Shown here: piece after piece, positions 1,716-34,968 of the stretch
How positions within the stretch are numbered: position 1 is the first letter of the stretch
Layout: each line of letters opens with the position of its first letter
Assembly: GCF_000875975.1 (NCBI RefSeq)
Contig: NZ_BAWW01000001.1
Coordinates: 1-34,968 of the forward strand
Source: Parachlamydia acanthamoebae
GTDB lineage: Bacteria; Chlamydiota; Chlamydiia; Chlamydiales; Parachlamydiaceae
DNA length: 34,968 nucleotides
Reading direction: 5' to 3'
Translations under genes and position numbers: made by a program
The notes under the pieces: model-generated
The model's input: the letters and a program-made list of their open reading frames with translations, nothing else
What the model was told of the DNA's origin: nothing
Databases searched by the model: none

Positions 1716-1789
1716 GGGGCAATAGCTCAGTCGGTTAGAGCAGCGGACTCATAACCCGCTGGTCGCTGGTTCAAGTCCAGCTTGCCCCA
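1716..1789 (+). tRNA. tRNA with CAU anticodon (Ile2-like or elongator Met)
   Basis: A full cloverleaf can be drawn. The acceptor arm is GGGGCAA (1716-1722) with TTGCCCC (1782-1788) and discriminator A1789. The D arm is GCTC/GAGC. The anticodon loop CTCATAA gives CAU, and the T arm is GCTGG/CCAGC with a TTCAAGT loop. No CCA is encoded. The anticodon stem ends in an A-C mismatch next to the loop. From memory, the variable loop and T arm match the minor tRNA-Ile2 of E. coli (lysidine-modified CAU) better than elongator Met, but I cannot settle which it is. It is the attachment site of the element to its right: bases from 1743 onward are repeated at 14875. Confidence 0.93.
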
Positions 1790-1795
1790 CTTTTT
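1743..1795. repeat. attL: 53-bp direct repeat within the tRNA 3' end
   Basis: These 53 bases run from the anticodon stem through the tRNA 3' end into a short T tract. They recur without any mismatch at 14875-14927, where the 5' part of the tRNA is absent. This is the classic left attachment site of a tyrosine-recombinase element: the integrated DNA replaces the 3' end of the target tRNA and carries an identical copy. Confidence 0.93.
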
Positions 1796-1892: not shown

Positions 1893-1983
1893 GTCTGACC
1901 CTATACACCTCAGCAAATCACAGCAATTATCATCACAGTGATCTTGTCACTGCTCACGCTAACCATCAAAATGGAGCATGAGC

Positions 1984-3087
1984 ATGGCCGAAGGCATTCA
2001 AAAAAGAATCAGCAAAAAAAACGTCGTAAGTTACAGGGTTCAGATTAGAGAAAGTGATGGGTTTCCACCAAAATCTAAGACCTTTCCTACTCTTCAGGAA
2101 GCAAAAGACTGGCAAAAACAGGAAAAAGCACGTAGACGGCAAGGATACGGTTCCTCTGATCTAATGACTGGTAAAAAGACTCTTATAGATCTTATTGATC
2201 GCTATGAAACGATTATCCTTCCTACCAAACCAAAAGATGCGAGAAATATGAAACGTCATCTCGATTGGTGGCGCAATAAAATTGGCAAATACGGACTCAC
2301 AAAAATTTCATCGGATCTCATAGCTCAGTGTAGGCAAGAATTAGCTGAAGGTGTGACTTCAAAGAAAACTAAACGCTCTCATGCTACAGTCAATCGCTAT
2401 TTGGCTACTTTATCTACGGTATTCACATATGGAATTAATGAATGTGGGTGGATTACTGATAATCCATGCCGACGAGTTTCAAAGTTTACAGAGTCAAAAG
2501 GACGCGATAGAATCGTAGCTGAGAATGAATTTACACGCTTATTTGAAGAATGCAAAAACAGCCGAAACGAACACTTGTTACCTGTTGTTGTGTTAGCAGT
2601 AACTACAGGCATGAGACGTGGTGAAATTTTAGGGCTAACTTGGGACTGTATTAATCTTGATAGACAAACAATAATCTTAAAGGAAACCAAAAATGGAAAA
2701 CAACGCACGGTTTCTATAGTAGGAGAAGCTTTAGAACTGCTTCGCTCTCATTATCAAAAAAGAAATCCCAATACACCTTATGTCTTTCCAGCAAAGAAAC
2801 GATTTGGAAAAATCTGTATAAGAAAGGCTTGGGATGAGGCTTTAAAACGTGCTGGGATTCAAAATCTGAGGATACATGATCTTCGACATACCTTTTGCAC
2901 ATATGCCTCCGAGACTGGTGCTTCAATTTTGGAATTGGCAGCAGCAATGGGGCACCAAACTTTACAAATGGTCAACCGTTATACTCATATGAATCAAAAG
3001 AAAATCACACATCAACTTTCTTCATCTGTAAATGAACGGATTTTTAAGGATATCAATGGCACAGACAAAACATCAAAAACTAGCTAG
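1984..3087 (+). CDS. int: Tyrosine-family integrase
   Basis: A phage-type site-specific recombinase of about 367 residues, expected to integrate and excise the element at the tRNA. The N-terminal 60 residues form an AP2-like arm-binding domain, a SAM-like core-binding domain follows (about 60-165), and the C-terminal catalytic domain has the box I arginine in TTGMRRGE (about residue 211), HDLRHT (about 298-303), MGH (about 324) and the tyrosine of NRYTHM (about 333). All catalytic residues are present, so the enzyme looks active. An ATG at 1978 also exists, but GGAG (1973-1976) is one base from it and seven bases from the ATG at 1984, so 1984 is the better start. It lies 189 bp inside attL and reads away from it, the usual arrangement. 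A decayed relative lies at 15110. Confidence 0.95.
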   Translation: MAEGIQKRISKKNVVSYRVQIRESDGFPPKSKTFPTLQEAKDWQKQEKARRRQGYGSSDLMTGKKTLIDLIDRYETIILPTKPKDARNMKRHLDWWRNKIGKYGLTKISSDLIAQCRQELAEGVTSKKTKRSHATVNRYLATLSTVFTYGINECGWITDNPCRRVSKFTESKGRDRIVAENEFTRLFEECKNSRNEHLLPVVVLAVTTGMRRGEILGLTWDCINLDRQTIILKETKNGKQRTVSIVGEALELLRSHYQKRNPNTPYVFPAKKRFGKICIRKAWDEALKRAGIQNLRIHDLRHTFCTYASETGASILELAAAMGHQTLQMVNRYTHMNQKKITHQLSSSVNERIFKDINGTDKTSKTS

Positions 3088-3196: not shown

Positions 3197-3966
3197 TGTG
3201 TTTAAAGCCATTGAAAACCATGGTTAAAGCATACCATTATGCTTTCTTCCATTTTAAAACAAACCCTACAGAATTTGAAATTCTGAAATTGAAGTGTCGA
3301 GGGGGCTTTATTGAGATAGTAGAAAGGAAATATCTTGAGAAGTCTCCTGTTAAACTGATTAAGAGATTTATCGCGTGGAATACCTTGATAAGCCGTTTAG
3401 AAGAAGATTTAACAATCTCACTAGATTATCCTTTATTGGATTTATGTAATCTTCCTATTGAACGAAAGCATTTCGATAAAATAAAGAAGGAATGGATGCA
3501 AAATTCTTTAATCTACCAAACTCAAACTATCGCAAGATATGAAAAGCAAAAACCCTTCATTCAAGCAGAGTATGCAAAGCAAAAAAAGCAAATGAGTGAT
3601 AACTTATTGAAAAAAGATGCTCTATCAATTTGGGAAGATTCTAAACAAAAATTCCAAGCACCTCTTTCTGAAAAATCTGATCTTAATGTTGTTTTTGAGG
3701 TCGCTATCAACCCACGTAATTTGGATTCAGTTAGCTTTGTTCCGTTGGAAGGAGATTCGATAGGCATTGCCTATGAAAAGGTGATGAATTCAATCCGCAC
3801 TAGAAAGGATCAACATCGTTTTGCCTTACGCAAAATCTATAAGGAAGAACTAGAAAAGGTTATTTTTAAAGATGTTATCATAAATAAGTCATTCAGAAAA
3901 TTGCCTTTAATACCCCTGAGGGAAATTTCTCGAAAAAACCACTTAAAAAACAAACAACAAAGTTAG
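3196..3966 (+). CDS. Hypothetical protein, possibly the 5' part of a split gene
   Basis: About 256 residues, rich in Lys and Glu, predicted soluble and helical, with no family I recognise. The ATG overlaps the stop of the 46-aa ORF (TGATG) and has no ribosome binding site of its own, which suggests translational coupling. Near its end, codons 3943-3951 read TTA AAA AAC and so contain A_AAA_AAC in phase. A -1 shift there enters exactly the frame of the 4005-4484 ORF, which is open from 3888. The two ORFs may therefore be one protein of about 430 residues, made by frameshifting or broken by a one-base indel in the A run. If fused, the C-terminal half looks like a diverged tyrosine-recombinase catalytic domain, but this is weak. 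Confidence 0.6.
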   Translation: MCLKPLKTMVKAYHYAFFHFKTNPTEFEILKLKCRGGFIEIVERKYLEKSPVKLIKRFIAWNTLISRLEEDLTISLDYPLLDLCNLPIERKHFDKIKKEWMQNSLIYQTQTIARYEKQKPFIQAEYAKQKKQMSDNLLKKDALSIWEDSKQKFQAPLSEKSDLNVVFEVAINPRNLDSVSFVPLEGDSIGIAYEKVMNSIRTRKDQHRFALRKIYKEELEKVIFKDVIINKSFRKLPLIPLREISRKNHLKNKQQS

Positions 3967-4004
3967 GAAGATGGGAAACCAGTCAAGTCATTGACTATCA
4001 AACA

Positions 4005-4484
4005 ATGAATTCTCTCTTCAATTACTTCTACAGGACTTTCATTTTAGACCCAGCAAATCTAAAAGCTGGTGATACTACCGTTATCATCTTAATTCGGATC
4101 TGGATAGCAACGCTAGATAGAGGCGAATCCGTAAGTACCAATGATATTCTTAAAATTACATCTCTAGACATCAATTTTCAAGACAGAATCTTGACGTTAA
4201 GAAAAGAAAGTTTTCCAATTCCTCATTGGATGTTTCTCTTACTAAGATGTTATTGCTCGGAGAAAAAACAAACTCGTGCTCACCGCATCTTCAAAAGCCT
4301 TGATATCCATGGAAAGTCGCTCGAAAGAGCTTTTCATGAAGCTTCTTATACTTTATTAGGACCAGGAATTACACCTATATTGCCTGAAGCAATGACATAT
4401 CTCCCTCATGGTTATCTTGAAGGCCGCATTCCTATATCAGAGCTTAACGATATGAGAAAGGTTGAGCCCTTAATCAGACCCTAG
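4005..4484 (+). CDS. Hypothetical protein, weakly recombinase-like; likely 3' part of a split gene
   Basis: The ORF from the first ATG has 159 codons, but no ribosome binding site precedes 4005 and the same frame is open back to 3888. That fits a continuation of the upstream ORF. The pattern in the middle (IWIATLDRGE, then ILKITSLDINFQDR and FPIPHWMFLLL) echoes the box I region of tyrosine recombinases, where RGE is followed by a beta sheet and a conserved IP. However, the HxxR and terminal Tyr motifs are missing, so it would not be catalytic. It could be a recombination accessory or directionality factor, or just a relic. The recombinase link is a hunch; the split-gene reading is better supported. 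Confidence 0.5.
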   Translation: MNSLFNYFYRTFILDPANLKAGDTTVIILIRIWIATLDRGESVSTNDILKITSLDINFQDRILTLRKESFPIPHWMFLLLRCYCSEKKQTRAHRIFKSLDIHGKSLERAFHEASYTLLGPGITPILPEAMTYLPHGYLEGRIPISELNDMRKVEPLIRP

Positions 4485-4765
4485 AAGCTTCTAAGACTAC
4501 TTTCTGAAAGAAAAGTTAGATTGATTCTTTTTTCGCTTTTCCAATGGCTCTATTTCACCTTTTGAGAATATCGTTTAGCATTCCTTTTTACAATTCTACC
4601 CACTTAATTGATAATCAATGATTTATTGAATTAAACAAGTCTTTAATTAGGTTTTTTTGTCTAACACAAGAACCCACGTCTCGTTCCGTAAATTCGATAT
4701 TCTGCTGAGATATGGTCAATTGAATTGAGTAAATAAATCATGATCACATCAAAAGGAGATTAGGT

Positions 4766-4975
4766 ATGGCTGAGAATAAGCGAGACGAAAGCTACTGCAC
4801 CATTAAGCAGATAGCTAATGACCCAACTTTTTGTTTTACAGTTCCTATGCTTAGGTATTACGTCCTTCATGCTCATCGTAATGGTCTATCCAAAGCTATA
4901 CGTCGAGTAGGTCGTAAAGTTTTAATTCGCCGAGATCAGTTTATAGAGTGGCTTGAAAAACAAACACGTCGATGA
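4766..4975 (+). CDS. Small HTH protein, AlpA/excisionase-like
   Basis: A 69-residue DNA-binding protein of the MerR/Xis/AlpA winged-helix type. The frame reads CTIKQIANDP, then a helix around residues 28-36, then GRKVLIRRDQFIEWLEKQ, the standard end of helix-turn-helix excisionase domains in which the R-x-x-F-x-x-W-L segment closes the wing. An AAGGAGA ribosome binding site lies 7 bases before the ATG. In satellites and small integrated elements, such genes sit between the integrase and the replication gene and control excision or switch on the replication module. The position here is the same, and a strong terminator follows directly, so it is likely expressed as its own unit. Confidence 0.75.
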   Translation: MAENKRDESYCTIKQIANDPTFCFTVPMLRYYVLHAHRNGLSKAIRRVGRKVLIRRDQFIEWLEKQTRR

Positions 4976-4996
4976 ACATACATCCGTATAAAACAC

Positions 4997-5029
4997 AAAG
5001 CCCTTGGAGATCGCAACTCCAGGGCTTTT
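4997..5029 (+). terminator. Intrinsic terminator after the HTH gene
   Basis: A 12-bp stem with one bulged T (4997-5009 with 5017-5028), a 7-base loop, then T residues. It separates the HTH gene from the helicase unit. It starts 22 bases after the HTH stop codon. Confidence 0.8.
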
Positions 5030-5044
5030 AACAAGGTAAACATT

Positions 5045-5182
5045 ATGAATGATAATATATCAAATAAGACAGTAAAGCCAGAAAATCCTTTAGTCAAAAC
5101 AGATTTCAAATTCGAAGGCTTATCTTTCGAAAGTAATAGTGATTTTGAAGTGGGTATTGAAGGAGGTATTTATGAAGGATAG
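5045..5182 (+). CDS. Possible 45-aa leader ORF before the helicase
   Basis: The ATG at 5045 follows an AAGGT-like site and opens 45 codons of an acidic peptide (ending in EVGIEGGIYEG). The ORF runs over the helicase ribosome binding site (AGGAGGT, 5161-5167) and stops 11 bases inside the helicase gene. An overlapping leader of this sort can couple or modulate translation of the next gene. No family is recognised. Confidence 0.4.
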   Translation: MNDNISNKTVKPENPLVKTDFKFEGLSFESNSDFEVGIEGGIYEG

Positions 5183-7061
5183 CAGTCAAATTATAGATTC
5201 TCTTCAAAAGCAATCGGACGATTTAGATCGTTTTGTGCTATTCAAATTTCAAAGTTCATTAGGAAAAGGGATTAAAAATCGCATTAAGTCAAATGGATGC
5301 CTTTGGAATGATGTATTTCGCGCTTGGATAGCTCCTATTAAAGACAAAAAAGCAGTAGAATCTATTTTTCGGGAAAATAACATTAGTTACGAAATCAAAG
5401 AAATATCAGCGCCAAACAGCATAATTCCAAAAGATGCTAAAACGGCTAACCTTCAAACATGTTCAGAAATACTACTTAGAAAAATCTTTGATGAGGAAAG
5501 GGAGTTGCTTGCAGATGTCTATCAATATGATTCATCACTTCGACCGGAAGATTTTAAAAATCCACCTTCAATAGAAGAAAAAACTGAAGTGCAAATTCAA
5601 TTGGAGAATGATTTTCATAGACGATTTCTTGATTTGGAAAAACAAAAAGAAAAGCAAAAATCCATCAATAATATCATTTCAGATCAAAGTGAAAAAATTT
5701 TATGTCATGATGCACCTGTAAATACCGCTAAATTTCTTATTAAAGATTCTTTCTCGCATCAAGAAGAGAGAACTATTCAATTTTGCTCAAATTCTTTTTG
5801 GTTATGGAAAGGTACTCATTATGTTGAAATTGATCCAAACAAAATTAGACAAATCACGTATAAATTTTTAGAAGATGCAAAAGTATTTAAGAATACTTGT
5901 TTAAAGAACTTTAATCCAAATCAAAATAAAGTAACTCAAATTATCGATGCTTTAAGGGCCGAGTGTTTTTTTGAGCACCATCCAGCAAATGGTACTATCT
6001 GGATTGATGGACGACAGATTCCAAATTCAAGGTACGTCATTTCCTTTCCGAACGGTATTTTTTCCATTGAGGACTGGTTAAAAGATGAGAAAATTGCCCT
6101 TATCCCTCCTACCCCTTCTCTCCTAAATACAAGTTGCTTGGATTTTAACTTTGATCCTAACGCTACCGAACCCAAAGAATGGTTGAAATTTTTGGAATCT
6201 TTATGGTCAGAAGATATAGAAAGTCAAAACGCAATTCAAGAATGGATGGGATATCTTCTTACACAGGACACAAAACATCAAAAAATTTTGTTAATAGTTG
6301 GACCTCCTAGAACAGGCAAGGGAACGATAGCTCGTATTTTAGAAACCTTACTGGGAGCTTCTAATGTAGCTGGGCCGACACTTGGCAGTCTTAATACTGA
6401 ATTTGGACTTCAACCCCTTTTAAACAAAACATTAATTATTATTTCAGATATACGCTTAGAAAGCATGAAAAGTTGTAGCACAACTGTAGAAAGACTTCTA
6501 AGTATTAGTGGGGAGGATTTATTAACTATAAATCGTAAGCATCAAATTCCCGTAACAGTTCGACTCCCAGCCAAAATCATTATGATGAGTAATGAACTCC
6601 CTGATTTAACTGATTCGAGCGGAGCTCTTGCCAATCGATATCTCGTCTTAAATCTTAAAACGAGTTGGCTACATCGTGAAGATACAGGTTTATTAGAAAG
6701 GCTAAAAATGGAGCTGTCAGGAATTTTGCTATGGGCTTTAAAAGGTCTTAAGCGATTAAACGAAAATGGACATTTCATTCAACCAAAAGCTTCTCTTGAG
6801 ACCATAGAAGAACTAAAAGAATTAAGTAGTCCTATTATGGTTTTTGTAGATGAAGTTTGTAACTTTGAACCAAAGGCGTGCACTTCTATCAAAAGTCTAT
6901 TCATTGCATGGAACCAATGGTGCACGTCAAATGGATACAAAAAAGGTACTACACAATCTTTTGGAAAATCTTTCAAAGCCGCTTTTCCAGAAATTAAAAA
7001 AAGAAGACTATCTTTTGAAGAAGGTAAGAGAGAATGGTGCTACATAGGAATTACTCTTTAA
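5172..7061 (+). CDS. P4/D5-type helicase, replication protein of the element
   Basis: A 629-residue member of the superfamily-3 helicases fused to phage/plasmid primases (P4 alpha / poxvirus D5 type). The C-terminal half has Walker A GPPRTGKGT at about residues 377-385, a Walker B-like strand LIIISDIR at about 420, sensor-like MMSNELPDL, and a D5-type winged-helix end. The N-terminal 200 residues show no TOPRIM or archaeo-eukaryotic primase motif that I can see, so it may be a helicase without primase activity. The start at 5172 is chosen because AGGAGGT lies 4 bases upstream; an in-frame GTG at 5139 has nothing. Such a protein would melt the element's origin and drive its replication after excision. 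The imperfect palindrome right after the gene is a candidate site of action. Confidence 0.88.
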   Translation: MKDSSQIIDSLQKQSDDLDRFVLFKFQSSLGKGIKNRIKSNGCLWNDVFRAWIAPIKDKKAVESIFRENNISYEIKEISAPNSIIPKDAKTANLQTCSEILLRKIFDEERELLADVYQYDSSLRPEDFKNPPSIEEKTEVQIQLENDFHRRFLDLEKQKEKQKSINNIISDQSEKILCHDAPVNTAKFLIKDSFSHQEERTIQFCSNSFWLWKGTHYVEIDPNKIRQITYKFLEDAKVFKNTCLKNFNPNQNKVTQIIDALRAECFFEHHPANGTIWIDGRQIPNSRYVISFPNGIFSIEDWLKDEKIALIPPTPSLLNTSCLDFNFDPNATEPKEWLKFLESLWSEDIESQNAIQEWMGYLLTQDTKHQKILLIVGPPRTGKGTIARILETLLGASNVAGPTLGSLNTEFGLQPLLNKTLIIISDIRLESMKSCSTTVERLLSISGEDLLTINRKHQIPVTVRLPAKIIMMSNELPDLTDSSGALANRYLVLNLKTSWLHREDTGLLERLKMELSGILLWALKGLKRLNENGHFIQPKASLETIEELKELSSPIMVFVDEVCNFEPKACTSIKSLFIAWNQWCTSNGYKKGTTQSFGKSFKAAFPEIKKRRLSFEEGKREWCYIGITL

Positions 7062-7074
7062 GACTTTGTGATTC

Positions 7075-7098
7075 ATGTCCTCGGACGTGCGCGGACAT
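7075..7098. promoter_or_regulatory. 24-bp imperfect palindrome after the helicase gene
   Basis: 20 of 24 positions are self-complementary around a central ACGT, with outer arms ATGTCC and GGACAT. It is GC-rich inside an AT-rich gap of 72 bp between the helicase and the next gene. Possible roles are an origin-proximal binding site for the helicase or a regulator, or a weak transcription pause. No T tract follows, so it is not a standard terminator. Confidence 0.4.
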
Positions 7099-7133
7099 AA
7101 AGCAAAATTAAATTCATGAAATAGGAGTGGTAT

Positions 7134-7787
7134 ATGGATAAAAAAATTATGCCTCAAATAGCAAGTGAGCGCAACTTAACAGCTGAAGAAAAAAAGACTA
7201 TTAGTATCTCGAAAAGAAAAAAACAAAAGCCTGAATCGATTTTTTGCTCTTCTGAGTGCGAAGACAAGGTTTTAGATATAGTTTTTGATAAAAATTTACC
7301 ACATAATGATGCTGTCGATTTGTTTGAAGCACGTCTCACAAGTGCAACAGGTCATTTAGACCGCAATTTAGGCATCCGCTTACTTGTAAAAGGCACTGAA
7401 GCTCTACCTAAAGAAAACCATGTGAATATAGCGGAGTCTCTAGATGAATTTGCAAAGGCTATGCAAGTATTTTCTCCTGAAGACGAATATGAAGGTCAAT
7501 TAATAGCACAATTAATAGTTCTTCATGAAAATGCATTGGAATTTTTGAATCGCGCCTCTCGTACAGACAGGATCGATTTTACAAATATTTATCTCAATGG
7601 AGCTTCTAAACTTCTAGCAAGGCATCATGAAACTTTAGATATGCTTCTTAAATATAGGAGAAAAGGAGAACAGCGTGTCTCTGTGGAACACGTTCATGTG
7701 TACAATGGGGGCAAAGCTATTGTAGGAAATGTGGACTCAGGGGGGGTAAATACAAAATTTGAGGAGGGTCCCCATGCAAAGGTGTAA
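7134..7787 (+). CDS. Conserved phage/plasmid-associated protein with HVHV motif
   Basis: 217 residues, mostly helical and acidic, ending in a conserved-looking tail with VSVEHVHVYNGGKAIVGNV (about residues 183-201). I know this tail from hypothetical proteins of proteobacterial phages and islands, where it usually reads VxVEHVHVHxGGQAIVGxV and the gene sits directly before one encoding an MHGG...KHG protein. That is exactly the arrangement here. Function is unknown in that family. The ribosome binding site is TAGGAG. The stop overlaps the start of the next gene by 14 bases, so the two are co-translated. Confidence 0.7.
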   Translation: MDKKIMPQIASERNLTAEEKKTISISKRKKQKPESIFCSSECEDKVLDIVFDKNLPHNDAVDLFEARLTSATGHLDRNLGIRLLVKGTEALPKENHVNIAESLDEFAKAMQVFSPEDEYEGQLIAQLIVLHENALEFLNRASRTDRIDFTNIYLNGASKLLARHHETLDMLLKYRRKGEQRVSVEHVHVYNGGKAIVGNVDSGGVNTKFEEGPHAKV

Positions 7788-7989
7788 AGCGAAATCAAAA
7801 CGAAGTGGAAAACAGTGTAAAAACTATGCTATAAAAAATTGCGGTGTATGCCGGATGCATGGAGCAAAGGGCGGCCCAAAAACAAAAGCAGGCATTATCA
7901 AATGTACGATAATGCCTTTTAAGCATGGGTTGTACAGCAAAGAGGTACAAGAAGAAATTCGATCTTTGAAAAAGTTGATTGTGAAGTGA
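7774..7989 (+). CDS. Small Cys-rich MHG...KHGLY protein
   Basis: 71 residues beginning with RCKAKSKRSGKQCKNYAI, then CGVCRMHGAKGGPK and FKHGLYSKE. This is the known family of short proteins with an R-C-x-A-x-[TS]-[RK]-x-G-x-x-C opening and an R-M-H-G ... K-H-G-x-Y core, found beside phage, terminase and transposon genes in many bacteria. The paired Cys and His residues could bind zinc. The ATG at 7774 is chosen over the in-frame TTG at 7759 because GAGGAGGG (7761-7768) lies 5 bases before it. Function is unknown; nucleic-acid binding is plausible. Confidence 0.75.
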   Translation: MQRCKAKSKRSGKQCKNYAIKNCGVCRMHGAKGGPKTKAGIIKCTIMPFKHGLYSKEVQEEIRSLKKLIVK

Positions 7990-8146
7990 CTTAAAATCTA
8001 CTATCTTTCATAGAAAATTCTTATCACTCTTATTGCAATCAACACTAAAATCATGCAGTAAATAAAAGTCATTAAAACTTCCTGAAATAAGTCATTTTAA
8101 ATAAGAAAAAATAATGGAAACTTCCCTAGTAGGCAACGAACAAGAA

Positions 8147-8593
8147 TTAAGCATTCCCTTCTACTGCCTTGCCTTCCGAATCTATAAATATGCTTGCATT
8201 CCAATGTTCATCTGTCTCAGAGATGCTATCAAGATTATACTCCCAACCTCTAATTGGTAATACGATTTCTCTTTGATTTGTTAGCATTCTAGATGATAAA
8301 TATTGAATAGCCTCGTTCAACATATCCTTAAGATTGCAGATTTCATTTTCATTATTTTCAGTGAGTGAATCTTCGTATACTTTCTCTCTTTTAACAAAAA
8401 ATTTTATTGCGTCAATTAAAGCCTCTTCTTTTGTTATTCCTTTACCAACAGCTTTTCCTAATTCGTTATCTTCTAATAAAGACTTATCGAAAACGTTTGC
8501 ATACACTACAATCCAGTCTTCATTCGTAACTTCATTTTTGACGCAAGCGATGCCACAGCAATCATTAAAATTTTCGATATTCCCCAACTTCAT
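8147..8593 (-). CDS. Hypothetical protein, 148 aa
   Basis: An acidic soluble protein on the minus strand with no family I recognise. An AAGGA ribosome binding site lies 8-9 bases before the ATG at 8593. The reading frame is clean and the gene lies divergent from the XRE regulator, sharing a 218-bp control region with it. It sits at the boundary between the replication module and the cargo, the place where satellites often carry accessory genes. The sequence has no signal peptide, membrane segment or repeat. Confidence 0.65.
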   Translation of the reverse strand: MKLGNIENFNDCCGIACVKNEVTNEDWIVVYANVFDKSLLEDNELGKAVGKGITKEEALIDAIKFFVKREKVYEDSLTENNENEICNLKDMLNEAIQYLSSRMLTNQREIVLPIRGWEYNLDSISETDEHWNASIFIDSEGKAVEGNA

Positions 8594-8668
8594 AACTATT
8601 GTCCTTATTTTTTTTTAACACCTCTATTATTCAAAATTTAATTTGTTGGTGTTTACAAATTTCATTAC

Positions 8669-8704
8669 ATCAAATGCCCCAGCTTCACCTCAGAGCATTT
8701 TGAT
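8669..8704. repeat. Inverted repeat between divergent genes
   Basis: ATCAAATGC (8669-8677) is the inverse of GCATTTTGAT (8695-8704) apart from one extra base, with a 17-base GC-richer spacer. It lies in the control region shared by the minus-strand 148-aa gene and the XRE gene, so it may be a protein-binding site or a hairpin in a leader. Confidence 0.35.
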
Positions 8705-8741
8705 CTGATAATGTCACAGTTTTCCATTTAATGCTACTTAA

Positions 8742-8768
8742 AGTCTGTCTACTTACAGTCTGTCGACT
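8742..8768 (+). promoter_or_regulatory. Tandem operator of the XRE regulator (C-box-like)
   Basis: Two 12-bp units, AGTCTGTC(T/G)ACT, lie at 8742-8753 and 8757-8768, 15 bp apart. Each has inverted ends (AGTC...GACT is exact in the second). Controller (C) proteins of restriction-modification systems bind paired GACT/AGTC boxes upstream of their own genes. The XRE protein encoded 43 bp downstream looks like that family, so self-regulation through these boxes is a reasonable inference. Confidence 0.55.
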
Positions 8769-8811
8769 CAGATAAGGCATAAGCGTACTCTTAAATTATT
8801 TTAGGAGTGCA

Positions 8812-9066
8812 ATGGAAGAGATCATATCAAAGCGGGATCGCGAAAAAATTAAGATTGGCTTTGGGGAGCTTGTTCGGCAAAAACGCCAAGCTCTTGGCAT
8901 TTCTCAAGAAGAACTAGCCTTTAGGAGTGGTCTCCATCGAACCTATGTAGGAAGTGTAGAAAGAGGTGAAAGGAATCTATCAATTGAAAATGTTTTTATC
9001 TTAGCAAAGGCACTTGAATGCCATCCGCGCGATCTTATACCAAATCTAGCCCAAAAAAATAGTTAG
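8812..9066 (+). CDS. XRE/Cro-type regulator resembling C proteins
   Basis: 84 residues with one helix-turn-helix domain: FGELVRQKRQALGISQEELA, then SGLHRTYVGSVERGERNLS, then a helix and LECHPRDLIP. The SQEELA / HRTYVGSVERGERN pattern is typical of small self-regulating repressors, including C proteins of restriction-modification systems. The ribosome binding site is TAGGAG, 5 bases before the ATG. Paired boxes lie at 8742-8768. No methyltransferase or endonuclease is adjacent, so it more probably controls element or cargo genes. It converges with the 539-aa membrane protein gene, whose stop is 12 bp away. Confidence 0.88.
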   Translation: MEEIISKRDREKIKIGFGELVRQKRQALGISQEELAFRSGLHRTYVGSVERGERNLSIENVFILAKALECHPRDLIPNLAQKNS

Positions 9067-9078
9067 TATTATTTTTTT

Positions 9079-10698
9079 TCAGAGGCAGATGGAATCCAAA
9101 ATTGACGATGCGTTTTCTGCTGGAGGTACTATTGATTGCTTGTTACCAAGCTTATCGATATATGCAAATGAATTGTTTTCATAAACCATGCTTTTAGGCA
9201 GGACTTTTTCCTTCATGTATTTTTGATCTACCATGGTAGCGTTTTGATCCAATAGAGGTTTTAAATCAACATACAAAAGTATTCTCGTTTTCTCTATGAG
9301 ATCGTCCATCCAAGAGTTTGTTCGAAAGCTGTTTGACACTAAACGAATAGCTAAATACTCTAGATAAGATTTTAAAGTTATTGGATAAAGTTTTTGCTTC
9401 AAATTTTTTGCGATTTTTTCCCATATATTTTTTTCAAATTCCGCTAGATATTCAACAGATTGTTCTGCTCCAAATTCCAATCCATCGAATAAAGTTATTA
9501 CAGTATGATATGTGATTGAACTGTTTTCAATGAAAGATAGGCTTTCAAAAGCTTTAGAAAGAGAATTGGCAAATATAGAGTTCACTATCGAAGGATGACT
9601 ATCTCCAGCATCAAAAAAAATATCTTTTTCTTTAATCGCTTTGTATTTAGTTAAAAAATGCGCGATTAGATGTAATCCCATACGCTCTTCAATCAAAACG
9701 TGAGTTACATTGATTCCTTGTTTTTCATGGGCACCGATTTTAAGACATAAATTTCGGAATAATTCATTGAGATTTCGTAAACCATTCTTAATCAAGTGAG
9801 AGTGAATGCTAAATGATTTTTTATAGTTCTCAATAAGCTTCTCTAGCACCTCAATAAATACTTTAACTCTAATAGATTTAAATTCTTCTTTGTCTATATA
9901 GCCAAGTTGATAGTCATTCAATAAATCAAAATTTTCTAATATATTTGGGAAATCAAATACCTTATAAATACAGCTAGAAAGCGATAACCCACTCAACTCT
10001 AGGTGTCGATATAAAAAAGATTGATCATCCAGTAATAGTTTTTGAGTAATTTTAGGCATGCAAACAATCAAATCGCTTGCATTCAGTTTGTATTTTTCGA
10101 GGCATTCAAAAAAGAAAATAAGAGCATCGAGTCTTTTTGTAGTTAGTATCTCAACAATATTCTCCTCACTCAAAACTTCATTTGTCATAAATCTTGCTGA
10201 TTCTGAAGTTATTTTGTCGTCACTCTTAATAGATATGCAAACGGCTTCAAAATTAATCATAAATAAATTGAATGCAGCTTGAATGCTATCTTCTGAACCT
10301 TTTGAAATTTCTCTAACTAATTCTTTATGAAAGGCATCTTTGATTGAAGGTTTATAAATTTTGTTTTTGAGTGAGAGTACTAACATAGAAGCAGGAGAAG
10401 CTATAAACATTAGATAAGCAAAAATATCATAATATACTGGGTTTCTAGTTAAAAGTTTAAATCCACCTCCAAGAATTAAAGCCTTAACTAACATTATAAA
10501 TAATCCTACTCCACTAAAAATCCAAATCAATTTTTCCTGTATACCCCCTCTTATTCTTAAAACAAGTGCCCAAAGTGTAGTGCGGAATTGATATACTAAA
10601 CCAATAAGACCAGCGGCTGCTAAGGCTCCGCCTAAATCCAAAAAATTTTGAAATTCCGCCGGTGACTCAGCATAATTATGATAGACTATATCAAGCAT
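9079..10698 (-). CDS. Membrane-anchored protein of unknown function, 539 aa
   Basis: The N-terminal 110 residues contain three likely membrane helices (about 22-40, 57-79 and 88-108). The remaining 430 residues are a helix-rich soluble region without recognisable catalytic motifs, Cys pairs or repeats. I do not recognise the family. It lies in the cargo part of the element, downstream of the RHH regulator on the same strand (gap of 69 bp), and converges with the XRE gene. A large membrane-tethered cargo protein next to two small regulators is the layout often seen for phage-defence or host-interaction genes, but nothing in the sequence proves either. The start at 10698 lacks a good ribosome binding site and is uncertain. 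Confidence 0.75.
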   Translation of the reverse strand: MLDIVYHNYAESPAEFQNFLDLGGALAAAGLIGLVYQFRTTLWALVLRIRGGIQEKLIWIFSGVGLFIMLVKALILGGGFKLLTRNPVYYDIFAYLMFIASPASMLVLSLKNKIYKPSIKDAFHKELVREISKGSEDSIQAAFNLFMINFEAVCISIKSDDKITSESARFMTNEVLSEENIVEILTTKRLDALIFFFECLEKYKLNASDLIVCMPKITQKLLLDDQSFLYRHLELSGLSLSSCIYKVFDFPNILENFDLLNDYQLGYIDKEEFKSIRVKVFIEVLEKLIENYKKSFSIHSHLIKNGLRNLNELFRNLCLKIGAHEKQGINVTHVLIEERMGLHLIAHFLTKYKAIKEKDIFFDAGDSHPSIVNSIFANSLSKAFESLSFIENSSITYHTVITLFDGLEFGAEQSVEYLAEFEKNIWEKIAKNLKQKLYPITLKSYLEYLAIRLVSNSFRTNSWMDDLIEKTRILLYVDLKPLLDQNATMVDQKYMKEKVLPKSMVYENNSFAYIDKLGNKQSIVPPAENASSILDSICL

Positions 10699-10767
10699 TG
10701 AAATATTTTTAATTTTTTGAGTTAATGATTAGAATTTTTTTCCTAGAATTTGGTCGCACGAAAAACA

Positions 10768-10965
10768 TTAGTCTTTGATAGAAATGGATAAAGCAATTTC
10801 TTTGTCATAAAGAAGTTTGATTCCTTCACAAAAAAGAGCGGATTTGTCCGTTTTTTTACGGTCTCGCAATCGCTTTATAAATAGCTCATTCAAAAGGCTT
10901 TCTTCTTCTTCAGTCATATAAACAGTCGTTCGTGCTTTTTTAGGTACAGTATCTTTTGTCTGCAT
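10768..10965 (-). CDS. Ribbon-helix-helix (CopG/Arc-like) regulator
   Basis: 65 residues with KARTTVYMTEEEESLLNELF, a basic beta strand (R-T-T-V-Y) followed by the first helix, then KTDKSALFCEGIKLLYDKE as the second. This is the standard RHH fold of plasmid- and phage-borne repressors and antitoxins. The ATG at 10965 is preferred over that at 11016 because AGAGGT (read on the minus strand) precedes it by about 7 bases. It is divergent from the DUF2167 operon, whose promoter region holds repeated AAGTCA half-sites. It may repress that operon, its own, or both. No toxin gene is recognisable beside it, although the 539-aa gene follows on the same strand. Confidence 0.8.
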   Translation of the reverse strand: MQTKDTVPKKARTTVYMTEEEESLLNELFIKRLRDRKKTDKSALFCEGIKLLYDKEIALSISIKD

Positions 10966-11020
10966 AGTCGTTACCTCTGAATTCTTAAATTTTGAATGAC
11001 TATCATCAATATTCAAAAAA

Positions 11021-11086
11021 AAGTCAAATCATTAAAGCATTAAGTCATTTAGACTCCTTGACTTTTAACCTTTTCTTTCTTAAACT
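11021..11086 (+). promoter_or_regulatory. Promoter of the DUF2167 operon with repeated half-sites
   Basis: TTGACT (11058-11063) and TAAACT (11081-11086) are separated by 17 bases, a near-consensus sigma70 promoter 28 bases before the first start codon. AAGTCA occurs at 11021-11026 and 11042-11047 (21 bp, two helical turns apart) and inverted as TGACTT at 11059-11064, overlapping the -35 box. RHH dimers usually bind such short repeats, so the neighbouring RHH protein is the natural candidate repressor. Confidence 0.55.
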
Positions 11087-11113
11087 ACTCATTCCTTTTT
11101 AAGGAGTTATGGA

Positions 11114-12121
11114 ATGATCAGGATTTTAATAACCTATTTTCTAATGTTTATCCCCTTCTATCTTGTATCTGCTGAAGTTAATATAGTTTCCGCGAATATC
11201 GAATGTGAGACTAATCAAGAAGAACTATTGGGAAATAATGCGATAGAAAATCTTCGAGCATTAACTACTGTTTATGCTGGGTTGACCGCGGATGAAAAAG
11301 AAGATTTTTTATCAGAGTTAGGACTAACAGAGGAAGTTTTTAAAAGTCTTGGGGCCTGGTCCAGACTAGACTGGAAAACCAAAGGAAAACACCCATTGCC
11401 GTTATCGAATTCAACAATATCAATTCCAAGTGGTTATGCTCTTGTTACTGGAAGAGATGCTGTCGCGGTTTATACAATTGAGGGAGAACCCGCTAATGAA
11501 TGCTTAGAAGCATTCGTTTGTGAGAGTGATAATTTCGATAACTCCGTGGTCTTTCAAAACATTAAAACAGGTTATATTTCGATTGATGACTGGAAGGAAA
11601 TAAATCCTAAAGAGCTTCTTGAAGGAATTATACAAAATACAGAAGAAGATAATAAAGAACGTAGAAAACGAGGATCGGCTGAATTACACGTTATAGGTTG
11701 GATTCAAGAGCCAACTTTAGACCAGCATACAAACACAGTTTATTGGGCGATTGAAGCTGATTCTGGAGATGATGAAAATCTTGTAAATTCGGTAGCAATT
11801 AGACTTGGGCGAGAAGGTTACGAAAAGATCACATGGATAACTTCTCGATCTTCTTATGTTCCTTTTGGTGGTCACTTAGATACGATGCTCCGCGCACATA
11901 GTTTTGATCCAGGATATCGTTATAATGATTTTAGAACTGGTGACAAGCTGGCAGGCTATGGTATTGCCACTTTAGTCGCTGCTACTGTCGGGGGAAAAGT
12001 GGTGAAAGCCGGAGGTATTGCGGTACTTCTCAAAAAATTTGGCGGTTTGCTTTTTGCAGGTATTGCTGCAGTTTTCTACAAATTTAAAAATCTTTTTAGA
12101 CGAAATAAGGATGCTTCATGA
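11114..12121 (+). CDS. Exported DUF2167-family membrane protein
   Basis: 335 residues with an N-terminal signal peptide (about 1-20, IRILITYFLMFIPFYLVSA) and a hydrophobic C-terminal stretch (about 295-322) followed by a basic end, so the central part faces the periplasm. The GYISIDDWKEINPKELLEGI segment, the GW..EPTLD.HTNTVYWAIEA segment, LGREGYEKI and DF.TGDKLAGYG match the pattern I know for DUF2167. That family occurs scattered in bacteria and its function is not established. AAGGAG lies 7 bases before the ATG. The gene heads a four-gene unit in which every junction overlaps. Confidence 0.8.
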   Translation: MIRILITYFLMFIPFYLVSAEVNIVSANIECETNQEELLGNNAIENLRALTTVYAGLTADEKEDFLSELGLTEEVFKSLGAWSRLDWKTKGKHPLPLSNSTISIPSGYALVTGRDAVAVYTIEGEPANECLEAFVCESDNFDNSVVFQNIKTGYISIDDWKEINPKELLEGIIQNTEEDNKERRKRGSAELHVIGWIQEPTLDQHTNTVYWAIEADSGDDENLVNSVAIRLGREGYEKITWITSRSSYVPFGGHLDTMLRAHSFDPGYRYNDFRTGDKLAGYGIATLVAATVGGKVVKAGGIAVLLKKFGGLLFAGIAAVFYKFKNLFRRNKDAS

Positions 12122-12258
12122 ACGAGGTAATAATATTAATTGGATGCATTTTAGCTGTTGTTTGGATTGCATGGATTGCTGTAAAAAAAATCGTTTACGG
12201 TCTTTTTTATGCAGCTACGAAAGCCATTGAAAATGCAAAAAGGAAAGACCATGAATAG
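12118..12258 (+). CDS. 46-aa single-span membrane protein
   Basis: The ATG overlaps the stop of the DUF2167 gene as ATGA and the TAG lies 8 bases inside the next gene, so it fits precisely between two real genes. Residues 4-22 (VIILIGCILAVVWIAWIAV) form one membrane helix, followed by a basic amphipathic tail ending KRKDHE. The tight coupling at both ends supports real expression. It is probably a small partner of the DUF2167 or the next membrane protein. Confidence 0.7.
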   Translation: MNEVIILIGCILAVVWIAWIAVKKIVYGLFYAATKAIENAKRKDHE

Positions 12259-12805
12259 TGAACCTCAAGGATTTGAAATAAATACACCTACACAACAAAA
12301 GAAATATTGGTCGGGAAATCTTAGGATCGTTTCTGATCTTATGTGGTGTATTTTAATATCTTTGCTGCTTATGTGGTCAAGCCAATCTCATCATGCCAGT
12401 CAACCATCGACAATCCCTAATTCTTCTCAAATAGGGCAATATATAGAAGAGTCAAGTCAATCTGGAGATTATTTAAAACCTCGCAGTTCTGCTGAGGAAA
12501 TTTCCCATCAAATTTCTTCCCTTGTTGGAAGGGTCGTAGGATGTTTTTTTATTTTCTTCTTTTGGTCTTGGAATCGAGAACATCTTAAGTGCAGGTCAGC
12601 AAGAATAACTATTCATTTTCTTTGCTGGACTATGTTTACCATCGCTCTCATTACTCTGGCTTTTTTGGGCTTGTATTTTCCTAGATCACTAAGAGAGTAT
12701 ACTGGCTGGTATGTCTTAATCCTAACGATTGTTTGGAGTGCCTTCATTATAAGAAAATATAAAGCGATAATGTGGCCAAATACAAAGCAAGTTAACTTAA
12801 AATGA
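12251..12805 (+). CDS. Four-helix membrane protein, hypothetical
   Basis: 184 residues with membrane helices at about 28-44, 91-108, 119-143 and 151-168, and a Ser-rich loop of about 45 residues between the first two. No family recognised. The ATG at 12251 is preferred: AAGGAAAG lies just upstream, whereas in-frame starts further left would lie inside the small membrane gene. Its stop overlaps the next start codon as ATGA. Its place in an overlapping operon suggests that it assembles with the DUF2167 protein. Confidence 0.75.
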   Translation: MNSEPQGFEINTPTQQKKYWSGNLRIVSDLMWCILISLLLMWSSQSHHASQPSTIPNSSQIGQYIEESSQSGDYLKPRSSAEEISHQISSLVGRVVGCFFIFFFWSWNREHLKCRSARITIHFLCWTMFTIALITLAFLGLYFPRSLREYTGWYVLILTIVWSAFIIRKYKAIMWPNTKQVNLK

Positions 12806-13539
12806 ACAACAAAGATCTTAATTTTAAAGAACGTATCCCTTATGAAGTAGACTTTCAATATCTTAATACTCAAGTCGATTTCTTCCTAACAACTCCTGAT
12901 GCAGAAAATAGGAAAGAACAGTTTTACAACATAATCGAATTTTTTAAGGACAAAAAATTTGTAGACCCTTCAGATGCATCCTTCATGAGGTCATTTCGAG
13001 TCAAATGTGAGAATTTTCAATATACCGTTGAATGCAATAACCTTATTGCTCGCCAAATTCTATCTGTACTACTCAATCTACAAGATAAAGGGGAAGCTAT
13101 TTACCACTCATGGTATTTGTATGATTACGATAGATGTAATGAAATGCCGCAGTTTATCCATAGCTTTTTTATTGCGGGCTCTCATAGAATCGTTTTAGAA
13201 AATGTAAGAATTTCCTCATCTTGGATGGACGAGTGTGATTCAAATGTTTTGATTGAATCATCTGTAGCTAATTGTCCGGATTCATCTCTCCCTCTTTGGT
13301 CTAATATGGAAGCGGATTTGAAAGCAGAGACCACGTGGTATTATCAGAAATTTTACCAAGAGACAATATTTGGCCAACTCCAGTCTCTTAAGAAAAAGCC
13401 TAAATCAAAAAAAATGCTGATTCCTATAGCAAATCAACATCCATCTGATGATCATGCCTCCTTACTCTGTTCAATTGATAAAAGTCTTAAATGGCTTATT
13501 TGTATAACAGTAATCCTCTTGTTAAAAATATTTTTCTAA
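12802..13539 (+). CDS. Tail-anchored protein, hypothetical
   Basis: 245 residues, soluble except for a C-terminal helix (about 228-244, LKWLICITVILLLKIFF) that would tether it to the membrane. The ATG overlaps the previous stop (ATGA). The body has many aromatic and Cys residues but no motif I can name. It closes the four-gene unit; no clear terminator follows. A cytosolic domain on a tail anchor is what would be expected of the inner-side partner in a membrane complex. Confidence 0.72.
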   Translation: MNNKDLNFKERIPYEVDFQYLNTQVDFFLTTPDAENRKEQFYNIIEFFKDKKFVDPSDASFMRSFRVKCENFQYTVECNNLIARQILSVLLNLQDKGEAIYHSWYLYDYDRCNEMPQFIHSFFIAGSHRIVLENVRISSSWMDECDSNVLIESSVANCPDSSLPLWSNMEADLKAETTWYYQKFYQETIFGQLQSLKKKPKSKKMLIPIANQHPSDDHASLLCSIDKSLKWLICITVILLLKIFF

Positions 13540-13557: not shown

Positions 13558-13650
13558 ACACATCTGTGGCATACAAAAGCCCTATTGCATTCGCAAATCT
13601 CAATACATCAATTAAATTCTTAGAAGATAAGTTATCATTGCTATAAGAAA
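13558..13650. repeat. Degenerate copy of the right-end arm region
   Basis: From CACATCTGTGGCATACAAAA on, about 90 bases align with 14745-14840, including the shared CATTCGCAAATCTCAA core. In the latter this block directly precedes attR; here no tRNA fragment follows. It may be the old right end of an earlier, shorter element, or a duplication of the integrase-binding arm. Confidence 0.6.
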
Positions 13651-13815: not shown

Positions 13816-14496
13816 TCAGGACTGCTCAGTCATTTTGTCAGCTTGCTTGGCCAACCCCAAAACATGATGAACCATGAAAGCATCAATCAACGACAAAGCG
13901 TAATTCTTGCTGATTGGTATCATTTCATTGGTTAACATATTATCAACATAATCTTCAGCATTCCAAAGCTTAAGAGTTATTCCCGGATTGCTAGGGATCA
14001 TCCGCCATAGGACGGCTTCAAAAACGCGGTTTGCTGATTCGATAAATTCTGCACGATCCTGCTCGCTTAAAGGAAGGGATATGATTTGTATATCCTCTTT
14101 AGGCTTGGATACCAATTGAGATTTTTTGTTTTTTTCTATTCCAAAAGTTACTTTATAATCGTGCTTATATGCCGACAACCTTGCTTCAGCGTCAAAATTT
14201 ATTCCATAATCATGCTCAATCTCGGAAATGTATTTTTTCCAATGTTGAACAGGAATTTTATCTTTGTTATCGAAAAGCAATTTTGCAAGTTCTAGCTCTG
14301 GTGTAGAAGCCTTTAATAAATCTCCCCATTTACCAAATCCAGCCATACAGGCAATAATATGTTGAGCTTTCATTAAGCTAAAACCATTCTCGCTGTAGTG
14401 ATAGTCTGTGAGAATGTCATTGAAGGAAGGTGTTTTGGTTTTATAATCTCTGAAAAGATTTTTTGCTTGCCGTTTGAAATATGCAATCTGTGACAT
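13816..14496 (-). CDS. Conserved hypothetical protein, 226 aa
   Basis: It begins MSQIAYFKRQAKNLFRDYKT and has FSLMKAQHIIACMAGFGKWGDLLKAS at about residues 38-63. I have seen this opening (a YFKRQAKNLxKDYKT stretch followed by an AxxxGFxxWxxLL segment) in uncharacterised proteins of mobile regions in several phyla. The GFxxW segment resembles the one in glyoxalase-related small domains, but no enzyme site is visible. AAGGATAT lies 5-6 bases before the ATG at 14496. It is the last gene before attR and is read toward the element interior. An 11-bp inverted repeat flanks its likely promoter. Confidence 0.65.
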   Translation of the reverse strand: MSQIAYFKRQAKNLFRDYKTKTPSFNDILTDYHYSENGFSLMKAQHIIACMAGFGKWGDLLKASTPELELAKLLFDNKDKIPVQHWKKYISEIEHDYGINFDAEARLSAYKHDYKVTFGIEKNKKSQLVSKPKEDIQIISLPLSEQDRAEFIESANRVFEAVLWRMIPSNPGITLKLWNAEDYVDNMLTNEMIPISKNYALSLIDAFMVHHVLGLAKQADKMTEQS

Positions 14497-21919: not shown

Positions 21920-22567
21920 ATGGAAAAATTGGTTCAGATAAAACATTTACATGTGGTTTTAGAAGGAATGCTTAAAATTCCACAATCTGCTCAAGGAATT
22001 GTGCTCTTTGCTCATGGAAGTGGTAGTAGCCGATTATCGCCACGGAATAATTTTGTAGCCGATATTTTAAATGATGCGGGATTGGCCACATTACTCATTG
22101 ACCTACTTTCAGAACAAGAAGACGAAATTTATCAAACAAGATTTGACATCGATCTTTTGACTGAGCGATTAAATATTGTGATTCAATGGTTAAAAAAACA
22201 ATCCGCTACACAAAATCTTGGCTTAGGAATTTTTGGATCCAGTACGGGAGCTGCAGCTGCACTGCGATCGGCTTCAGAAATGGGGAAGGAAATAAAGGCT
22301 GTTGTTTCGCGAGGTGGACGTCCGGATTTAGCTATAGATATATTAGACAAGGTAACTGCTCCGACTCTATTTATCGTAGGAGGAAGTGATTATGGCGTCA
22401 TTGAATTAAATCAAAAAGCCTATGAACGATTAATTTGCTTAAAAAAATTCGAAATCATCCCGCATGCAACGCATCTTTTTGAAGAACCTGGTTGCCTAGA
22501 AGAGGTTGCAAGACTTGCTAAGGAATGGTTTAATGAGCATCTAATATCGAAAAAGCGTGTAGGCTAA
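21920..22567 (+). CDS. Alpha/beta hydrolase, dienelactone-hydrolase-like
   Basis: 215 residues of a small cytosolic hydrolase. The nucleophile is Ser108 in GIFGSSTGAAAAL, the acid Asp157 in VGGSDYGV, and the histidine His185 in HATHLFEE. An oxyanion-side HGSGSSR lies at 32-38. The fold type is that of short dienelactone-hydrolase relatives, which in many genomes are found alone or fused to phosphoribosyltransferases; their substrates are poorly known. A strong GGGAGGG ribosome binding site is present. The stop codon shares one base with the start of the CapA gene, so they form an operon. A degenerate copy of this junction lies at 20346-20715. Confidence 0.88.
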   Translation: MEKLVQIKHLHVVLEGMLKIPQSAQGIVLFAHGSGSSRLSPRNNFVADILNDAGLATLLIDLLSEQEDEIYQTRFDIDLLTERLNIVIQWLKKQSATQNLGLGIFGSSTGAAAALRSASEMGKEIKAVVSRGGRPDLAIDILDKVTAPTLFIVGGSDYGVIELNQKAYERLICLKKFEIIPHATHLFEEPGCLEEVARLAKEWFNEHLISKKRVG

Positions 22568-23556
22568 TGAGAATTGCATTAATGGGGGATGTAATGCTAG
22601 GCCGCTTGGTCAATAGGGTGCTGAAGCATCGCGATCCAGCTTATCCGTGGGGAAATACTCTATCTATTTTACAAAATGCAGACTTACGCATTTGTAATTT
22701 GGAATGCGTTCTTTCTGATATTGGCAATCCTTGGTCTACTACCCCCAAAGTGTTTCATTTTCGCTCAGATGAAAAAAACATCAAAACGCTTCAAGTTGCT
22801 AACATCAATATTGCCTCTATCGCTAATAACCATGTCCTCGACTATGAATATGAAGCTTTGCAGCGCATGCTAAATATTCTAGATGAACAAGGAATTCTCC
22901 ATACCGGGTCAGGGAAAAACTTATCAGAAGCAGCAAAAGCGATATTTTGTCAAATAAAGGGTCAAAAAATTGCTTTAATTGCATTTACTGATAATGAGCC
23001 TGACTGGGCTGCACAGGAAAATAAACCAGGCATCTTTTATGTGCCAACAGACATACATGATAGAAGAATGCAAAATCTTTTGAGGTATATTGAAGATGTG
23101 CGGAAAGAAGCGGATTTTTTAATTATGTCAGCACATTGGGGTTCTAATTGGGGATATTATCCACCTCGAGAGCATGCATTAATTGGACATGCAATGATAG
23201 ACGTTGGCGCCGATCTTATTTTTGGTCACTCCGGTCATGTTTTTAGAGGGATTGAAATTTATAAAAACAGGCCCATCATTTATTCTGCGGGGGATTTTAT
23301 CGATGATTATGCTGTAGATGAAATAGAAAAGAATGACGAGTCTTTTATTTTTGTCCTAGAAAAAGAGCGAGATTCCAGCTTAAGGCTTTATCTTTATCCG
23401 ATTTGTATTGATCAATTCCAAGCCAATTTAGCTTCTCTTAACCGACAAGAAGCTATTTTGTCACAGATGAAAAATTTATGCAAAGATTTAGGGTCGGACT
23501 TCAAATGTTTTTCTAATTATGGTTTTATAGAAATATATAATAAGCAGAAGAAATAA
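22567..23556 (+). CDS. CapA-family metallophosphatase-like protein
   Basis: 329 residues of the CapA/PgsA family (calcineurin-like metal-binding fold linked to poly-gamma-glutamate capsules). The full motif set is visible: MGDVMLGR, NLECVLSD, ANNHVLDY, SAHWGSNWG and GHSGHV. Unlike classical CapA it has no N-terminal membrane anchor or signal peptide and is read from ATG 22567, overlapping the hydrolase stop by one base, so it should be cytosolic. No pgsB/pgsC-type capsule genes are in the window, so a role in capsule synthesis is not supported; a phosphatase of unknown substrate is more cautious. Confidence 0.9.
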   Translation: MRIALMGDVMLGRLVNRVLKHRDPAYPWGNTLSILQNADLRICNLECVLSDIGNPWSTTPKVFHFRSDEKNIKTLQVANINIASIANNHVLDYEYEALQRMLNILDEQGILHTGSGKNLSEAAKAIFCQIKGQKIALIAFTDNEPDWAAQENKPGIFYVPTDIHDRRMQNLLRYIEDVRKEADFLIMSAHWGSNWGYYPPREHALIGHAMIDVGADLIFGHSGHVFRGIEIYKNRPIIYSAGDFIDDYAVDEIEKNDESFIFVLEKERDSSLRLYLYPICIDQFQANLASLNRQEAILSQMKNLCKDLGSDFKCFSNYGFIEIYNKQKK

Positions 23557-34889: not shown

Positions 34890-34968
34890 AAGTTGTGTAT
34901 GAGGTGAAAAAAAGAGAGCGCATCCTTAAAATGTTTTTTACGACAAAAACTAAATGGGAGTGCGCTCA
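34877..34968. mobile_element. End of an insertion-like element, 92-bp repeat copy 2
   Basis: Identical by eye to 18105-18196 up to the last base of the window. It starts inside the coding region of the 709-aa gene and carries the same leader hairpin and GGGAG ribosome binding site, so a copy of the element probably continues past the window edge on the plus strand. Confidence 0.7.

Follow-up and report, generated by a model that had tools for sequence, protein, structure and literature searches.

A DUF2167-headed membrane operon carried by a tRNA-Met integrative element of Parachlamydia acanthamoebae: a candidate protective module

The operon and the element that carries it

The DNA analysed here (the window) is a stretch of 34,968 nucleotides from a Parachlamydia acanthamoebae assembly. 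It contains a compact group of four genes, here g1 to g4, facing away from a small putative regulator gene:

10768-10965, minus strand: 65-aa small regulator, divergent from the operon, with relatives up to 83% identical
11019-11066, no strand assigned: possible shared control region in the divergent intergenic region, with face-to-face -35-like boxes AAAAGTCAA / TTGACTTTT
11114-12121, plus strand: g1, 335-aa DUF2167 protein with signal anchor, predicted PsbP/Mog1-like domain and C-terminal TM helix
12118-12258, plus strand: g2, 46-aa single-span protein, TM segment hydropathy 3.0
12251-12805, plus strand: g3, 184 aa, about four TM helices, homologue at G186:C86:4623-5003
12802-13539, plus strand: g4, 245 aa, mostly soluble, C-terminal TM segment (tail anchor) from hydropathy and a confident C-terminal helix

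The initial annotation had described a compact membrane operon of four ORFs overlapping at every junction, headed by a DUF2167 protein and completed by three unrecognised partners, and in these respects it was accurate. The g1/g2, g2/g3 and g3/g4 overlaps are of 4 bp (ATGA), 8 bp and 4 bp (ATGA), respectively. The match of g1 to DUF2167 (PF09935) scores 228.8 bits (E 7.1e-68) against a cut-off of 25, while g2, g3 and g4 exceed no cut-off in Pfam, NCBIfam, PADLOC or PHROGs and g1 matches nothing there besides DUF2167. A match of g2 to DUF2189 was rejected, its 19.2 bits lying below the cut-off of 26.2. Hydropathy analysis reveals a signal-anchor and a C-terminal hydrophobic stretch in g1, one TM segment in g2, about four in g3 and one at the C-terminus of g4.

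Coding was assessed by simulating the same 2.4 kb 1000 times under a Markov model and scoring the longest plus-strand ORF of each run. The simulated lengths had a median of 67 aa, reached 125 aa at the 99% point and peaked at 191 aa; g1 and g4 are clearly coding beyond chance, and g3 both exceeds the 99% point and is supported by a homologous protein. By length alone g2 is within chance, and the case for it is made by its TM segment, the AGGA upstream and the overlaps. A Shine-Dalgarno-like AAGGAG precedes g1 and purine-rich AGGA/AAAGGAAAG sequences precede g2 and g3, while inspection of the g4 start found no clear Shine-Dalgarno sequence. The near-consensus promoter of the initial annotation, at 11058-11086 (TTGACT-17-TAAACT), has 9 of 12 matches and is well placed before g1, but shuffled sequence gives promoter-like matches at least as often (7 found vs 11.1 expected). 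The TTGACT boxes between the regulator and g1, both promoter-like matches, form a perfect 9-nt inverted repeat and could possibly have a shared control role. A terminator scan of the region gave nothing better than chance.

Rather than standing alone in the chromosome, the operon is carried as cargo by a 13.1-kb integrative element inserted in a tRNA-Met gene; the other features of the element are as follows:

1716-1790, plus strand: tRNA-Met (CAT), the integration site (ARAGORN; Rfam tRNA 71.7 bits)
1743-1795, plus strand: attL, 53-bp direct repeat comprising the 3' half of the tRNA, 100% identical to 14875-14927
1978-3087, plus strand: tyrosine integrase (phrog_1 integrase, E 2.9e-71), 84% identical in the G092 element
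4766-4975, plus strand: small, putatively excisionase/AlpA-like backbone gene, 97% identical in G092, relatives at L054, L055 and L075
5139-7061, plus strand: P4-family primase/helicase (TIGR01613, 159 bits, cut-off 108.7), related genes in six other genomes
7134-7787, plus strand: conserved backbone gene, 76% identical in G092, relatives at L052, L055 and L056
7759-7989, plus strand: conserved backbone gene bounding the cargo zone on the left, 89% identical in G092, relatives at L052, L055 and L056
8812-9066, plus strand: HTH (Cro/cI-type) regulator (phrog_3, E 2.8e-10), with a relative adjoining the NERD-STAND gene in G092
9079-10698, minus strand: neighbouring cargo gene, product of 539 aa with TM helices at the N-terminus, matching no family
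13816-14496, minus strand: 226-aa protein, last cargo gene before attR, matching no family
14875-14927, plus strand: attR, 53-bp direct repeat, a perfect copy of attL

The 23-base core of the att repeat occurs twice in the window (0 expected), and the integrase, the att repeats at a tRNA and the P4 primase that define a P4-type integrative element are all present. Genes of the sid, psu and delta type, for capsid-size redirection or helper dependence, had no PHROGs match among the ten element proteins scanned, and viral contigs searched with g1, g3, g4 and the primase contained no relatives. The 539-aa protein has a homologue, 44% identical, in a degraded tRNA-Met element of G096 (L066:7880-9517), and its gene is an independent candidate cargo gene.

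Two further observations concern the right-hand part of the element. A 24-bp near-perfect repeat (13585-13608 and 14772-14795) lies around the 226-aa cargo gene and might mark cassette exchange. Directly to the right of attR are fragments of a second integrase (15110-15391 and 15526-15798), which suggest tandem or successive elements at the tRNA site.

Sister elements and the divergent regulator

Relatives of the primase occur in six other genomes, at 70% identity in G092 and 49-52% in the remaining five. In G092, G122 and G136, an element with a related primase likewise occupies this tRNA-Met gene and is bounded 12-13 kb away by a tRNA-half repeat. Integrase, small AlpA-like gene, primase, 7134-7787 and 7759-7989 form a backbone common to the sister elements; between the last of these genes and the far repeat lies the variable zone of the family, and there the DUF2167 operon sits. 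G122 carries type I RM there, G136 an MmeI-type RM protein with a helicase and a T5orf172-domain protein, and G092 a NERD-nSTAND3 ATPase. The element of G049, recognised by its related primase on a contig without the tRNA, carries a VWA/PP2C/kinase triad unrecognised by PADLOC. G099, of the same genus, has integrase remnants at this tRNA-Met site and, next to them, AbiEi/AbiEii and a SoFic-type protein. PADLOC found no match for g1 to g4, the 539-aa gene or the 65-aa regulator, none of which can thus be assigned to a known defence system; ten chromosomal genes outside the element of the window gave no PADLOC match better than 1e-4.

The closest parallel is with the P4-like satellites of Escherichia coli, which carry antiviral hotspots (Rousset et al. 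2022, PMC9122126). Like these, the element described here has an integrase, a P4-type primase, a size of about 10-15 kb and a variable cargo zone, and in its family, as in the satellites, that zone contains RM, AbiE and other defence genes. Unlike them, it is chlamydial, its cargo operon is unrecognised and no capsid-hijack genes were seen among the proteins scanned. Environmental chlamydiae have a family of tRNA-Met integrative elements, about 13 kb in size, with a hotspot where restriction, abortive-infection and NTPase systems gather. This suggests that amoeba-dwelling obligate intracellular bacteria are under enough pressure from phages or other elements for defence cargo to remain on the move. 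Within the hotspot, the DUF2167 operon is a defined candidate of four genes and 2.4 kb that could be tested in a laboratory host.

The small regulator divergent from the operon matched no Pfam family, but by inspection it appears to be a ribbon-helix-helix protein. It has matches in 29 of 234 chlamydial genomes, that of the window included. At the 10 regulator loci mapped, a YhcG/DUF1016 nuclease gene comes next in five and AbiE genes adjoin in two. The order of genes in G074 is an exact parallel to that in the window, with a downstream gene (the 539-aa gene in the window), the regulator and a divergent operon, which in G074 encodes a restriction endonuclease and helicase. Joint control of the divergent genes by the regulator may be inferred. 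More widely, the regulator is a recurring companion of YhcG nucleases or AbiE in the mobile cargo of chlamydiae (L085, L087-L090, L092, L095, L096), and could serve as bait for further chlamydial defence islands.

Distribution and predicted fold of DUF2167

DUF2167 proteins were found in 7 of 234 chlamydial genomes, again counting that of the window, in which a search found no second copy; a scan of genome contigs found two chlamydial loci only. In G072 and G073 the gene lies at a conserved aroA/ispG locus, and the other chlamydial copies are beside unrelated genes. G038 has a tandem DUF2167 pair on a small contig (L006/L008/L036, G038:C27), adjoining a pair of genes resembling a type II toxin-antitoxin module. 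Among the plasmids and phages searched, the only DUF2167 relatives were in Burkholderiaceae; on an annotated replicon of this family, from Caballeronia, the gene is beside nitrate transporter genes and lacks the partners. Partners equivalent to g2-g4 accompany DUF2167 in none of the six other chlamydial genomes, nor do relatives of g3 or g4 lie near other chlamydial DUF2167 genes. The complete operon is confined to one of the 234 genomes searched. A literature search for DUF2167 produced passing mention only.

As a DUF2167 protein, g1 is orthodox, with a full-length match far above the cut-off, all the conserved residues of the family and a C-terminal membrane segment. Its closest relatives are not in its own family: it is 57% and 50% identical to the proteins of G030 and G031 (family f5), compared with 37-41% for the two Parachlamydiaceae copies. 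This suggests that the gene may have been acquired by horizontal transfer, with moderate support in the tree, where the window copy itself has no starred support. Unlike the other copies inspected, which are solitary or in tandem, g1 is on an integrative element, in an overlapping operon, and has about 50 extra aa at the N-terminus. This helical stretch (residues 35-85, 11216-11366) is shorter or absent in other chlamydial homologues.

No match to g1 was found among PDB sequences up to E 1. An AlphaFold2 (AF2) model of g1 was built from seven sequences, with a mean pLDDT of 71.6; in ten-residue blocks over residues 81-290, the pLDDT was 71-94. A Foldseek search with the model retrieved CyanoP (E 4.9e-6, probability 1.00, TM-score 0.57 by target length) and, after PsbP proteins, DcrB, EagT6/SciW and the immunity protein Tsi3. 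The Tsi3 structures had the highest target-normalised TM-scores, 0.63-0.68, at probabilities of 0.96-0.99 and E-values around 0.02. Tsi3 has itself been reported to resemble Mog1 and PsbP (PMC3792639). The core of DUF2167 is therefore predicted to adopt a PsbP/Mog1/DcrB-like fold and to be a partner-binding module; structures sharing the predicted fold include CyanoP 2lnj, DcrB 6e8a, Tsi3 4luq and EagT6 6xrf, several of them from periplasmic or lumenal partner-binding proteins. At the sequence level, g1 exceeds the cut-off of PF09935 alone and not those of the PsbP, DcrB or Mog1 families, to whose members it is about 10% identical, and the DUF2167 domain differs from them also in being membrane-anchored at both ends. 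The prediction offers a first structural home for DUF2167. An AF2 model of g4, built from its single sequence, was unusable (pLDDT 39).

Possible functions of the operon

The interpretation that we tentatively favour, at somewhat under an even chance, is that the operon is a strain-specific, mobile inner-membrane module with a protective or defensive function. It may be so because it is carried on a mobile element, in a zone where relatives have antivirus systems, and from this context an effect on phage or superinfection is plausible. Against it, none of the four products matches a known defence family and the complete operon occurs in a single genome of the 234; location, moreover, is an indirect pointer, since such zones hold non-defence genes too. 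The cargo zone also contains other unrecognised genes, encoding proteins of 539, 226 and 148 aa, and one of these could be the defence part instead of the operon.

In the favoured interpretation, the DUF2167 domain would be periplasmic, tethered through its signal anchor and its C-terminal helix, and would bind an incoming or exposed factor. The membrane part would be formed by g2 and g3, with the tail-anchored g4 at the cytosolic face. The module would either keep a competing phage or element from entering or disable the membrane of a cell that is infected. The small regulator, transcribed divergently, suggests that expression might be controlled. A more specific proposal, which we regard as doubtful, is that the operon represents an undescribed envelope-level defence system of chlamydial integrative elements, with the PsbP-fold DUF2167 protein as the periplasmic sensor of a complex with g2-g4. 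If correct, this would be the first function for DUF2167.

The main alternative, which we consider unlikely, is that the operon, or part of it, is an acquired cassette conferring immunity to antibacterial polymorphic toxins (Rhs or similar) of the kind that neighbours deliver. In that case DUF2167 would act like Tsi3 and neutralise a toxin in the periplasm, with g3 and g4 countering one in the membrane or cytosol. The only clear relative of g3 in the phylum (35-37% identical, E 2.2e-11) is encoded in G186, where its gene comes immediately after those for an Rhs toxin and for a lipoprotein of a putative immunity family, the latter weakly related to the lipoprotein array behind an Rhs gene in the genome of the window (G000). 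Given about four Rhs loci in a 1.6-Mb genome, this placement is unlikely to be coincidence, although it is a single post hoc case. The N-terminal 26 aa of g4 have a 62% match in the same genome (G186:C44), beside a repeated toxin-tip remnant; the Tsi3 structures, as noted above, lead by TM-score; and mobile orphan immunity genes are established (PMC12247911). Against this, the window lacks Rhs genes and the element encodes no recognised toxin, the two links consist of one locus for g3 and a 26-aa match for g4, both post hoc and from one genome, and immunity arrays are usually of separate genes in which overlaps would be unusual. Furthermore, the PsbP/Mog1 fold serves many functions and the E-values for Tsi3 are far weaker than those for PsbP. 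The weaker g3 matches (E 1e-4 to 1e-2) were for the most part set aside, as they appear to reflect chance resemblance of TM segments in membrane proteins that are not related.

The recombinase-associated interbacterial defence clusters of Bacteroidales offer a partial precedent. As there, a recombinase-bearing element would carry unlinked protective genes, and relatives of g3 and g4 lie near toxins in another genome. The operon differs from those clusters in that it has no known immunity domain (SUKH etc.), no array of separate genes and no identified cognate toxin.

That the operon is envelope-maintenance or host-adaptation cargo unconnected with defence, DUF2167 having an ordinary envelope role as an extra copy accompanied by unrelated membrane genes, appears slightly less likely still. 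The solitary chromosomal occurrence of DUF2167 elsewhere does suggest a housekeeping envelope role and so counts against defence; the gene appears to be a solitary, vertically inherited one at aroA/ispG in G072 and G073 and beside the nitrate transporter genes in Caballeronia. However, the corresponding zone in sister elements is mostly occupied by defence genes, the adjoining regulator travels with such genes and G000 has no other DUF2167 gene.

It is highly improbable that the four genes encode a conserved DUF2167-headed membrane complex of fixed stoichiometry, as the initial annotation had proposed from the overlaps and the membrane segments in every product, since overlaps of 4-14 bp are also found in unrelated cargo operons of related elements (hsdM/hsdS, mmeI/helicase, VWA/PP2C and AbiEi/AbiEii), and since the comparison of DUF2167 neighbourhoods, chosen beforehand as the one that could refute the idea, finds the partners missing from the six other chlamydial genomes and the Burkholderiaceae replicon and the overlaps unconserved within Chlamydiota. 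A complex limited to this strain could exist.

Some minor observations were made outside the element. In G186 (L028, G186:C44:7000-19000), positions 6125-8873 encode a secreted protein of 525 aa, and a remnant copy of its C-terminal part lies next to small soluble genes; the locus, which matches no Pfam family, looks like a chlamydial polymorphic toxin-immunity array. In the window's own genome, but on another contig (L068, G000:C39:1-14000), positions 3207-12823 comprise an 1829-aa Rhs gene and, behind it, short ORFs resembling toxin tips together with an array of genes for related secreted proteins or lipoproteins, each about 175-190 aa long, and form a putative immunity array. In the window itself, a phosphotransferase-like gene is split between two frames (16074-16391 and 16388-16882) and, being a single 310-aa frame in G099 (L074:269-1201), is likely a pseudogene. 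Positions 20534-20755 partially repeat the start of a 329-aa gene (22567-23556), and 28 bp are identical at 17948 and 22719; these appear to be remnants of duplicated genes. Finally, a 92-bp perfect direct repeat (18105-18196 and 34877-34968), its copies 16.8 kb apart and the second reaching the contig end, is probably a dispersed repeat that broke the assembly.
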